DNA from: a virus | Virus record (IMG/VR): IMGVR_UViG_3300030329_000303 | Location: 1 to 22,883 of that record | DNA: 22,883 bases | Reading direction: 5' to 3' (one strand) | Part shown: positions 4,831 through 7,415 of the stretch, piece after piece | How the letters are laid out: each line of letters opens with the position of its first letter | Position numbering within the stretch: the stretch's first letter is position 1 | Notes under the pieces: generated by a model | What the model was told of the DNA's origin: nothing | What the model saw: the letters and a program-made list of their open reading frames with translations, nothing else | The model's database searches: none | Program-made: the position numbers and the translations under genes

Positions 4831-5091
4831 TTGCCAGAACAACACAAGGTGCAGGCTGAAATCCTGCAAGCCTATAGGGACATTTTCTTACACACGCCAC
4901 AGGGACAAATAATTTTTAAGGATTTGATGAAGGTGTCTGGTTTGTACCAGACAACCGGCATCAGGCCCGACAGTGAGCTCCAGCATATGGAGGGTGGTCG
5001 GGACATGGTGAGACGGATCATTCAGATCCTGTCTCTTGAAGAAGAACAAGTCACACAAATAGCATTAGGAGATTTTATCGATGCCGAATGA
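4831..5091 (+). CDS. Bbp19-like small phage protein
   Basis: This 86-residue protein uses a TTG start placed six bases after the GGGGA site that begins at the portal stop. It has the features of the Bbp19-like phage family: a helical N-terminus with a TPQG motif (HTPQGQIIFKDL, 21-32) and, after a spacer, HMEGGRDMVRRIIQIL (52-67), where EG-R followed by hydrophobic positions is the shared signature. In BPP-1 the homologue lies in the head gene cluster; no biochemical role is firmly established to my knowledge. The last 11 bases overlap the scaffold start. No signal peptide or membrane segment is seen. An assembly role next to portal and scaffold is inferred from position. Confidence 0.8.
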   Translation: MPEQHKVQAEILQAYRDIFLHTPQGQIIFKDLMKVSGLYQTTGIRPDSELQHMEGGRDMVRRIIQILSLEEEQVTQIALGDFIDAE

Positions 5092-5902
5092 CGCAGAAGG
5101 GTCCGTTTTAACGGGCAACCCAGAAGCAGACGCAGAAAGTTGGGCGGCTGGTCTGGATGACTATAGTGAGGTTATCGAAGCCAAGGGCTGGCAATCCAAC
5201 GCTGATGTTCTCAAGAGTTATGTGAACCTTGAGCGTCAGGTCGGTGCCGATAAGGTCGTTTTGCCTGGTGAGGGTACGGATCTCACTGAGTGGGAAGGCT
5301 GGCAAAAGCTAGGAACGCCTGAGAACGCAGAAGACTACCAATTGGCGGCTCCTGAAGGTTTTGACAATTATGACCAGGGGCTTTCGGATTGGTTTCGTGA
5401 GGCCGCACATTCGGCGCGTATGCCAGCAGAACAGGCGCAGCGCCTGCATGATGCGTTTGTTGAACGCATGATTAACAATTCCCAGGATCAGGTTGCAGCG
5501 GCACAGCAGCAACAAGATGGTTGGGAGGCCGATTTAAAGAAGGAATATGGCACCGCTTTCGATGAGCGCGTGGCCGCAGCAAGATCGGCACTGCGGGAAT
5601 TTGGAACTCCTGAACTACAAGAGATTATTGATGGGTCTGGTCTTGGTTCCCATCCCGAAGTTGTCAAAGCCTTTGCTAAAATAGGCATGGCTCTGGGCAA
5701 AGGCCCACAGGGCAAGGGTCTCGGTGAGGAGTCCGGCCAGTTCGGAACGACACCTGAAATGGCGAAGGAACAGATAGCCAAGATCAGAAGCAACCCGGCG
5801 TTACAGGATAAGACGCATCCTGAACATGCCGTTTTGAATGCCAAACTTACGCAATTATATGAATTGGCCTACGGAAATGAACTCGTAGCCAAAGCGGGAT
5901 AA
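5081..5902 (+). CDS. Capsid assembly scaffolding protein
   Basis: This 273-residue acidic protein fits a podovirus scaffold by position (portal, then scaffold, then capsid), composition and helical content. It has an acidic N-terminus with many Ala/Glu/Asp, a conserved-looking LGTPENAEDYQL segment (76-87) often seen in phage scaffolds, a long Gln/Ala-rich helix (about 125-160) likely to form a coiled coil, and a C-terminal helix with LNAKLTQLYELAYG where scaffolds usually contact the coat. GGAG precedes the ATG. The scaffold directs coat assembly and leaves before DNA packaging. Its first codons contain one copy of a hairpin-forming sequence that recurs just after its stop. Scaffolds diverge quickly, so the assignment rests partly on context. 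Confidence 0.85.
   Translation: MPNDAEGSVLTGNPEADAESWAAGLDDYSEVIEAKGWQSNADVLKSYVNLERQVGADKVVLPGEGTDLTEWEGWQKLGTPENAEDYQLAAPEGFDNYDQGLSDWFREAAHSARMPAEQAQRLHDAFVERMINNSQDQVAAAQQQQDGWEADLKKEYGTAFDERVAAARSALREFGTPELQEIIDGSGLGSHPEVVKAFAKIGMALGKGPQGKGLGEESGQFGTTPEMAKEQIAKIRSNPALQDKTHPEHAVLNAKLTQLYELAYGNELVAKAG
5090..5121 (+). repeat. Hairpin-forming imperfect repeat, copy 1 (inside scaffold start)
   Basis: GACGCA, two bases, AGGGTCCGTTT, TAA, CGGGCAACCC. The same blocks recur at 5937-5964 with the TAA missing and one base fewer after GACGCA. As RNA, GGGT can pair with ACCC and CCGTT with AACGG around a two-base loop. Here it is read in frame within scaffold codons 4-14. Confidence 0.7.
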
Positions 5903-5923
5903 CCTTTCGGCCTCGCACAGACT

Positions 5924-5939
5924 GTCGGGATAGACCGAC
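5924..5939 (+). promoter_or_regulatory. Small hairpin in the capsid leader
   Basis: GTCGG and CCGAC enclose a six-base loop in the 103-base gap between scaffold stop and capsid ATG. It is directly followed by the second repeat hairpin. No T-run follows, so it is not a typical terminator. A transcript-processing or stability role is a guess. Confidence 0.4.
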
Positions 5940-5964
5940 GCACAGGGTCCGTTTCGGGCAACCC
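5937..5964 (+). repeat. Hairpin-forming imperfect repeat, copy 2 (capsid leader)
   Basis: GACGCA, one base, AGGGTCCGTTT, CGGGCAACCC: 27 of 28 bases align with copy 1 at 5090-5121 apart from small gaps. The stem GGGT/ACCC is kept and the inner stem is CCG/CGG around TTT. It lies untranslated about 40 bases before the capsid start and is followed by TTTAACCCCTT, not a clean T-run. Start overlaps the preceding small hairpin by three bases. Confidence 0.7.
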
Positions 5965-6005
5965 TTTAACCCCTTACTTTTAATCTAGCAAAGGAGAATT
6001 GGCTT

Positions 6006-6887
6006 ATGTCAGTTCAAATTACTACTGCCTTTGTAGAACAGTATAAGGGCACCGTCGAACATCTTGTTCAGCAACAGGGTTCGCGCCTTCGGGACTGTGT
6101 CAGCGTTGAGACAGTCACGGGCAAGAATGCTTTTTTTGAACAGATCGGTGCCACCGCTGCTCAACAAAGAACCTCGCGTCATGCGGATACTCCGAGGATG
6201 GATACTCCTCACTCCCGCAGGCGCGTTTCTCTAACCGACTATGATTGGGCCGACCTCATTGACGACGAGGACCGGGTCAGAATGTTGATCGACCCCACAA
6301 GTGAGTACGCAAAAAATTGTGCAAACGCTATGGGTCGCAGCATTGATGATGTAATCATAGCCGCTGCTGACGGCACCGCCTACACGGGTGTAGCCGGTGG
6401 CACCTCGACAGCTTACGACAGTTCTATGACTGTTGACGTTCAGGTTGGAATTAGCCCTGCGGCTGATACGGGCCTAAACGTTGGCAAGCTCCGGGCTGCA
6501 AAGCAAAACCTCGACGCGAATGAGGCCGAGGACGGTGATCGGTACATGATCATCAATGCGAAGCAACTGCAAAACCTTCTGGCTGAGACGGAAGTAACTT
6601 CGAGCGACTTCAATGTTATCAAAGCGTTAGTCGCTGGAGAAGTTTCATCCTTCATGGGCTTCACTATGAAAAGAACGGAGCGCATTGGGACTGATTCCAA
6701 TTCGGATCACAAGGTTCTGTACTGGCAACGGGCTGGCATGAAATTGGCCGTAGGCAAAGAGCCTACTGTCAAGATCAGCGAACGCGCTGATAAGAACTAT
6801 GCCACCCAGGTTTTCACGTCGATGGCAATCGGTGCAACCCGCATGCAAGAAGAGCTTGTTGGTTACATTGAATGTGATCCAACCTAG
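6006..6887 (+). CDS. Major capsid protein
   Basis: This 293-residue protein is the likely coat subunit, of the short Bbp17-like class found in BPP-1-type podoviruses, presumed to have the HK97 fold. Supporting features are its place directly after the scaffold, a very good ribosome site (AAAGGAGA at spacing 9), the N-terminal helix region VEQYKGTVEHLVQQQGSRLRD (cited as residues 10-29), the HSRRRVSLTDYDWADLIDDED region (69-89), which resembles the extended-loop area of such coats, and the C-terminal YATQVFTSMAIGATRMQEELV typical of coats ending in a beta strand. The long upstream leader with two hairpins may tune its high expression. The cement gene follows within 13 bases. I see no truncation. 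Confidence 0.92.
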   Translation: MSVQITTAFVEQYKGTVEHLVQQQGSRLRDCVSVETVTGKNAFFEQIGATAAQQRTSRHADTPRMDTPHSRRRVSLTDYDWADLIDDEDRVRMLIDPTSEYAKNCANAMGRSIDDVIIAAADGTAYTGVAGGTSTAYDSSMTVDVQVGISPAADTGLNVGKLRAAKQNLDANEAEDGDRYMIINAKQLQNLLAETEVTSSDFNVIKALVAGEVSSFMGFTMKRTERIGTDSNSDHKVLYWQRAGMKLAVGKEPTVKISERADKNYATQVFTSMAIGATRMQEELVGYIECDPT

Positions 6888-7386: not shown

Positions 7387-7415
7387 GGGGAGGCTTCGGC
7401 CTCCCCTCTTCTTTT
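7387..7415 (+). terminator. Intrinsic terminator after the cement gene
   Basis: GGGGAGGC (7387-7394) and GCCTCCCC (7399-7406) form a perfect 8-bp stem capped by TTCG, the extra-stable UUCG tetraloop, followed by TCTTCTTTT. It lies just after the cement stop and before the tail adaptor ribosome site, so it would favour capsid and cement transcripts over tail transcripts, as partial terminators after coat genes do in other podoviruses. Confidence 0.93.

Follow-up and report, generated by a model that had tools for sequence, protein, structure and literature searches.

The stretch of DNA analyzed here (22,883 nucleotides at full length, hereinafter the window) is a 22.9-kb virus record that represents a podovirus contig related to the HTVC010P-type pelagiphages. 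The capsid protein encoded in the window is 53-59% identical to the capsid proteins of Pelagibacter phages, e.g. HTVC010P and Baldr, and the pelagiphage homologs of its scaffold ORF bear the name 'capsid assembly protein'. The head-gene region contains the following features, with positions given in window coordinates.

5081..5902, + strand: scaffold / capsid assembly protein gene, 273 aa (match to phrog_3742, and to the protease family phrog_458)
5099..5121, + strand: scaffold-start module in the order A-loop-B, GGG-U-CCGU-uuua-ACGG-G-CAA-CCC (descriptor scan; codon bias; consensus fold of 16 relatives)
5894..5916, + strand: H1, the permuted module B-loop-A, GCGGG-A-UAA-CC-uuuc-GG-C-CUCGC (covariation in helices 1-2 of alignment A5)
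5924..5939, + strand: H2, a plain hairpin, GUCGG-GAUAGA-CCGAC (covariation in A5 helix 3)
5944..5965, + strand: H3, A-loop-B, AGGG-U-CCG-uuu-CGG-G-CAA-CCCU, equal to copy 2 of the repeat (covariation in A5 helices 5-6)
5895..5964, + strand: the entire capsid-leader element H1-H2-H3 (covariance models R1 and R2)
5966..5997, + strand: weakly structured U/A-rich stretch with the Shine-Dalgarno sequence AAAGGAGA, from H3 to the capsid ATG (sequence; folding z +1.3)
6006..6887, + strand: major capsid protein gene, 293 aa (match to phrog_3437)

A small conserved ORF with weak relatives in HTVC010P (4831-5091) occupies the gap between the portal and scaffold genes and overlaps the scaffold start. Downstream, 3' of the gene that follows the capsid gene, there is an intrinsic-terminator-like hairpin, GGGGAGGCUUCGGCCUCCCC followed by UCUUCUUUU (7387-7406), the position of which recalls that of T-phi in T7.

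The original prediction held that a hairpin-forming repeat brackets the scaffold gene. The blocks GACGCA, AGGGTCCGTTT and CGGGCAACCC indeed occur in the same order at 5090-5121, within scaffold codons 4-14 (ORF 5081-5902), and at 5937-5964, where the second copy precedes the capsid ATG (6006) by 41 nt; the bracketing arrangement was seen again in relatives. When copy 1 was aligned locally, with gaps allowed, to the remainder of the window, the repeat scored 20 and the next-best place 11, compared with a mean of 11.4 and a maximum of 14 in 100 Markov-shuffled windows. Given that the copies contain gaps, the repeat is overlooked by an ungapped repeat finder. No sigma-70 promoter site was found at the copies, and the possibility that AGGGTCCGTTT is a phage-promoter repeat was discarded: it does not recur exactly elsewhere in the window, and near matches are no more frequent than expected by chance. 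When the two segments were folded as single sequences, the energies were unremarkable (z about -1 and 0), so single-sequence folding would not have revealed the structure described below.

The two copies are instances of a single recurrent RNA module found in the late mRNA of a large group of podoviruses, marine and other, that comprises the HTVC010P type and its relatives. Searching IMG/VR for the exact motif yielded 13 stretches; a relaxed motif scan of all fetched loci showed that the same two places are occupied in many relatives, and inspection of 60-odd capsid leaders indicated that the repeat as first seen represents one form of a broader module. In this module, a 4x1 internal loop, [G/A]YA[A/C/G] opposite [U/C], connects two helices. 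The first base of the loop pairs in a wobble-like manner with the single base across from it, and this pair switches jointly between G.U and A.C, as it can because the two wobbles are isosteric, and the remaining three bases, YA[A/C/G], form a bulge adjoining this pair. Writing the pair as w1.w2, strand B comprises helix X, w1, three bases and helix Y, and strand A comprises helix Y', w2 and helix X'. The strands occur in two orders, A-loop-B at the scaffold start and in H3 of the window, and the circularly permuted B-loop-A in H1, and the stem positions in relatives use all four Watson-Crick pairs. Accordingly, the GGGU/ACCC stem that had been proposed to be retained in both copies holds in part: GGG/CCC is conserved among relatives together with the 4x1 loop closed by G.U or A.C, whereas the fourth outer pair, U-A, is not. 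The strand-permuted third copy (5894-5916) was absent from that account.

In the capsid leader, the apical loop of H1 is on the side opposite to that of H3, with H2 located in between. H2 is a plain hairpin and varies among relatives, with the hexaloop GANAGA in many, a GGAA tetraloop in some, and loss of the hairpin in some clades; leaders L014, L015, L025, L027, L030 and L063 contain an extra hairpin between H2 and H3. In the window, the scaffold gene terminates with a UAA (5900-5902) that also forms the 3-nt bulge of H1. The same holds for 15 of 60 relatives, in which a terminating ribosome would therefore sit on H1; at this frequency, the stop codon was not retained as an integral part of H1.

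Among 74 distinct leaders, the module descriptor identified H1 in 57, H3 in 59, and both in 50, against expectations of 2.2, 1.3 and 0.15, respectively, from Markov-simulated leaders. The descriptor fixes some letters, whereas a second test fixed none and admitted all internal-loop sizes from 0x0 to 7x3. Under this letter-free test, 4x1 was by far the most common size (67/73 for H1 and 58/73 for H3), followed by its register neighbor 5x2 (47 and 30), with all remaining sizes at 28 or less. The closing bases, unconstrained in the 4x1 matches, were A.C or G.U in 54 of 68 cases for H1 (44 A.C, 10 G.U) and in 53 of 61 for H3 (34 A.C, 19 G.U).

A covariance model, R1, was built from seven leaders and run with cmsearch over 566 kb. 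The top 32 matches (E <= 0.06) all lie on the + strand directly 5' of a capsid gene, the placement expected of an RNA family in its own right; they include the window leader (64.5 bits, E 6e-16, itself a seed sequence) and divergent relatives in which the element was located at the same place and on the same strand. A second version of the model puts the leader of Vibrio phage VP2 at the right spot, with an E-value of only 0.11. In the alignment of the 32 matches (A5), which was fitted to the model and is thus biased towards the structure, 99.0% of the cells are paired, compared with 77.8% after shuffling, and changes on both sides were found at 14 of the 16 pairs, spread over all three leader hairpins. 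Covariation scores 0.50 in this alignment, compared with 0.126 in shuffled alignments (none of 500 reached the observed value) and at most 0.082 with slid partners. The automatic alignments A1-A3, in which H3 is misregistered, were left out of these counts. This covariation in related phages, which had been named as a check, strongly supports the proposed selection at the RNA level, as do the codon bias and the positional conservation described below; pairing-breaking changes, named beforehand as grounds for rejection, are not what the relatives show, given that the fold has been kept.

The same comparison bears on the suggestion that the repeat arose by chance or by recombination, either through duplication of part of the scaffold start or as a scar able to excise the scaffold gene. 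The copies in the window align almost without mismatches, as such an origin would imply, but an excision site should comprise two copies of high identity, and in many relatives the two share only chance-level sequence (local scores 6-9) while both still fold. Together with the strong covariation, this makes an origin of this kind extremely improbable.

The third bulge base is the same in H1 and H3 in 64 of 67 genomes (AA 40, CC 21, GG 3), an agreement that fits a partner shared by the two hairpins. On the capsid tree, this base changes about 10 times in H1, and the joint H1-H3 state changes 13 times, with too few supported independent pairs. Shared ancestry, or recombination that moved the 70-nt leader as a block, may partly account for the agreement.

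At the scaffold start, the window module extends from +18 to +40 relative to the scaffold ATG (A = 0) and encodes GSVLTGNP. Across the clade of the window, it starts 11-18 nt after the ATG (11 in the HTVC010P-type phages) and encodes GS...GNP, with loop and inner stem lengths that differ by whole codons. The codons of this motif are highly biased: in counts that ignore kinship, glycine is encoded by GGG in 32 of 33 motif proteins (14% elsewhere in the same genes), serine by TCC in 28 of 33 (17% elsewhere) and asparagine by AAC in 30 of 31 (56% elsewhere). In L024 and L030, the bulge is CAC, such that threonine replaces asparagine, and the third base of the leader H3 is likewise C. Four phages, HTVC010P, HTVC035P, Greip and HTVC100P, carry the permuted order at this place, e.g. 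ACAG-A-UAA-CACAG-gaaa-CUGUG-C-CUGU, with compensatory changes among them, and encode QITQETVPV or similar in place of GSVLTGNP. Thus, the module and its place are kept across the window and HTVC010P types, whereas the amino acids and the strand order are not. By eye, the module is also retained with long loops in L002 (CCGCA/UGCGG), L060, L064 and L077. In L080 and L123 (Baldr), a possible B-loop-A form with an A-U closing pair in place of A.C and a long loop can be seen by eye, and H1 and H3 in the leaders of these two are likewise atypical. The copy was not found at the scaffold start in several clades that retain H1 and H3, e.g. L035 and L045, and accordingly is not essential.

H1 and/or H3 were detected in cultured Pelagibacter phages, as well as in contigs that had been binned with Phyllobacterium, Ensifer, Magnetococcales and Desulfobacterales; Yersinia phage YeP4 has H3, and Vibrio phages VP2 and K292 have H1 and H3 with the bulge UAG in both (assigned partly by eye). 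The descriptor scan found neither H1 nor H3 in MEP301, Vibrio 1.257.O, Dunaliella virus SI2 and one Acinetobacter phage. The leaders L135 (HTVC028P) and L136 (Skadi-11), both of the HTVC010P type, have no clear modules by descriptor, with a degenerate H1 in L136. The epsilon15/BPP-1/Tr60 lineage, which shares the protease-like gene, was considered and set aside: with about 10-20 nt before the capsid gene, there is no room for the leader. Other high-scoring module matches across the whole of HTVC010P, VP2 and the window are few and at the level of shuffled sequences. A cluster of matches at +1200 from the capsid gene, confined to coding sequence of a closely related group and with the bulge CAG, is probably due to chance.

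Given that the internal loop is conserved whereas the apical loop and the strand order are not, we infer that protein binding is the best mechanism for the module; recognition is probably of the internal loop itself, since the module works in either strand order. The copies are conserved, covary, and lie on the coding strand at the scaffold and capsid genes. We tentatively favor, at somewhat less than an even chance, a scenario in which a shared trans-acting protein binds the copies, thereby repressing initiation at the scaffold gene and also acting on the capsid leader. The binder, one for all sites, could come from the phage, as a head-assembly protein, or from the host, as a conserved RNA-binding protein. 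The window, HTVC010P and VP2 have in common the terminase, portal, scaffold, capsid, tail tube and a tail-fiber gene, as well as the small portal-scaffold gene (with weak similarity), whereas no early regulator or accessory gene common to the three was detected. Given that the shared genes are essentially those for packaging, head and tail, a morphogenesis or host protein is the likely partner. The hairpin of the scaffold-start module is conserved and keeps a fixed distance to a start codon, and its place just past the ATG, at the edge of the initiation footprint, fits a translational operator; a protein occupying +11 to +45 of the scaffold ORF would block ribosome loading. H1 and H3 are located upstream of the open A/U-rich capsid ribosome site and leave it uncovered, so direct blocking is not expected of this pair, which should instead act through stability, through standby binding or through titration, and a protein bound to it would affect the stability of the capsid message or its initiation. 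A single regulator could thereby set the scaffold-to-capsid ratio.

At its 3' end, the capsid leader has a ribosome site that is A/U-rich and weakly structured, as does the T7 gene 10 leader, and in several relatives the U/A-rich stretch (window counterpart 5966-5997, with a strong Shine-Dalgarno sequence) contains UAACUUUUAAUGGAGG, which closely resembles the enhancer of the gene 10 leader. These hairpins might accordingly serve only mRNA stability or insulation, holding the capsid ribosome site open and slowing decay without any specific partner. We regard this as improbable: plain stems would suffice for such a role, whereas the conserved 4x1 loop, with its switch between isosteric G.U and A.C pairs, and the bulge base on which H1 and H3 agree point to recognition, and the copy within the scaffold ORF would be left unexplained.

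If, instead of a regulator, a phage or host endoribonuclease recognized the internal loop, the modules would be processing sites that separate scaffold from capsid; a cut in the leader would yield a hairpin-protected capsid message and one at the start of the scaffold gene would shut off its translation, so that a single activity would account for contrary effects on scaffold and capsid. A putative ribonuclease has been reported in the genomic islands of HTVC010P-like phages (PMC6487183), which counts in favor of this option. However, no early or accessory gene common to the window, HTVC010P and VP2 was found, and hence no shared nuclease, and the stems comprise only 6-9 pairs. RNase III, for which cleavage had been suggested, needs about two helical turns of near-continuous duplex, and 6-9 pairs are too short. 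Processing by RNase III thus appears unlikely, and we consider processing in general to be an unlikely explanation.

The RNA could also function without a dedicated phage protein, as a put-like antiterminator acting on the host RNA polymerase, a tandem riboswitch or an RNA tertiary motif. The phages with this element infect alpha- and gammaproteobacteria, which fits a conserved host target, and the two like modules of the leader face each other and could dock. Against this, the lone module within the scaffold ORF, with its fixed spacing to the ATG, is more in keeping with a role in translation; an antiterminator would override the terminator-like hairpin shortly downstream in the window (7387-7406); and no expression platform was seen for a riboswitch. 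A protein-free function therefore appears rather unlikely.

The module is apparently undescribed. No Rfam 15 family matched the window at the gathering score, region 5040-6020 gave just two matches, both far below the cut-off, and 13 relatives including HTVC010P and VP2 gave none at E <= 0.5; no description was found in the open literature, subscription journals being mostly outside the search. The closest parallels in design are the MS2, PP7 and Q-beta coat-protein operators and the T4 gp32, gp43 and RegA operators, which likewise are short hairpins with a defined bulge near a start codon, lie in a structural or replication operon, and allow repression by a phage protein, as the module would. 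Unlike the RNA-phage operators, the module is found in dsDNA podoviruses and has a 4x1 loop with G.U/A.C rather than a single bulged A; unlike these and the T4 operators, it occurs in three copies and two strand orders. The P22 scaffolding gene is subject to post-transcriptional autoregulation, which by description resembles the scheme proposed here in controlling scaffold synthesis within the head operon of a dsDNA phage; we know of no defined RNA site for it. The cis-acting put RNAs of HK022, which consist of two stem-loops with conserved bulges, are located in early operons and act on terminators via the host RNA polymerase; compared by description only, they share with the leader the cis-acting phage RNA with two bulged stem-loops, but the module is located in late structural genes, with one copy within an ORF, and to our knowledge put does not occur in late ORFs. 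The T7 gene 10 leader, with one plain stem, an A/U-rich stretch and a strong Shine-Dalgarno sequence, also serves a podovirus capsid gene and shares with the H3 leader the succession of hairpin, A/U-rich stretch, Shine-Dalgarno and capsid, but lacks the internal-loop module. Candidate structured RNAs of marine phages, among them manA and wcaG, have been reported (PMC2864571); these too are structured mRNA leaders identified by comparative genomics, but they are associated with metabolic genes, and capsid goes unmentioned in the paper's text.

Phages of the HTVC010P type rank with the most abundant pelagiphages known (PMC12753301), and almost nothing is known of their late-gene control, while the setting of the scaffold-to-capsid ratio in DNA phages is a long-standing question. 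The element offers a compact, mutable site with a clear prediction, present in cultured phages, and a case of natural strand permutation of one internal-loop module in both a coding region and a leader; should the partner be found, the module could become a new protein-RNA tether. It is conceivable, if on present evidence doubtful, that this is an undescribed RNA recognition module that, in either strand order, lets the phage's own head-assembly protein feed back on the scaffold and capsid messages. If so, it would be the DNA-phage counterpart of the RNA-phage coat operator, in phages of the HTVC010P type and in their relatives that infect other hosts.
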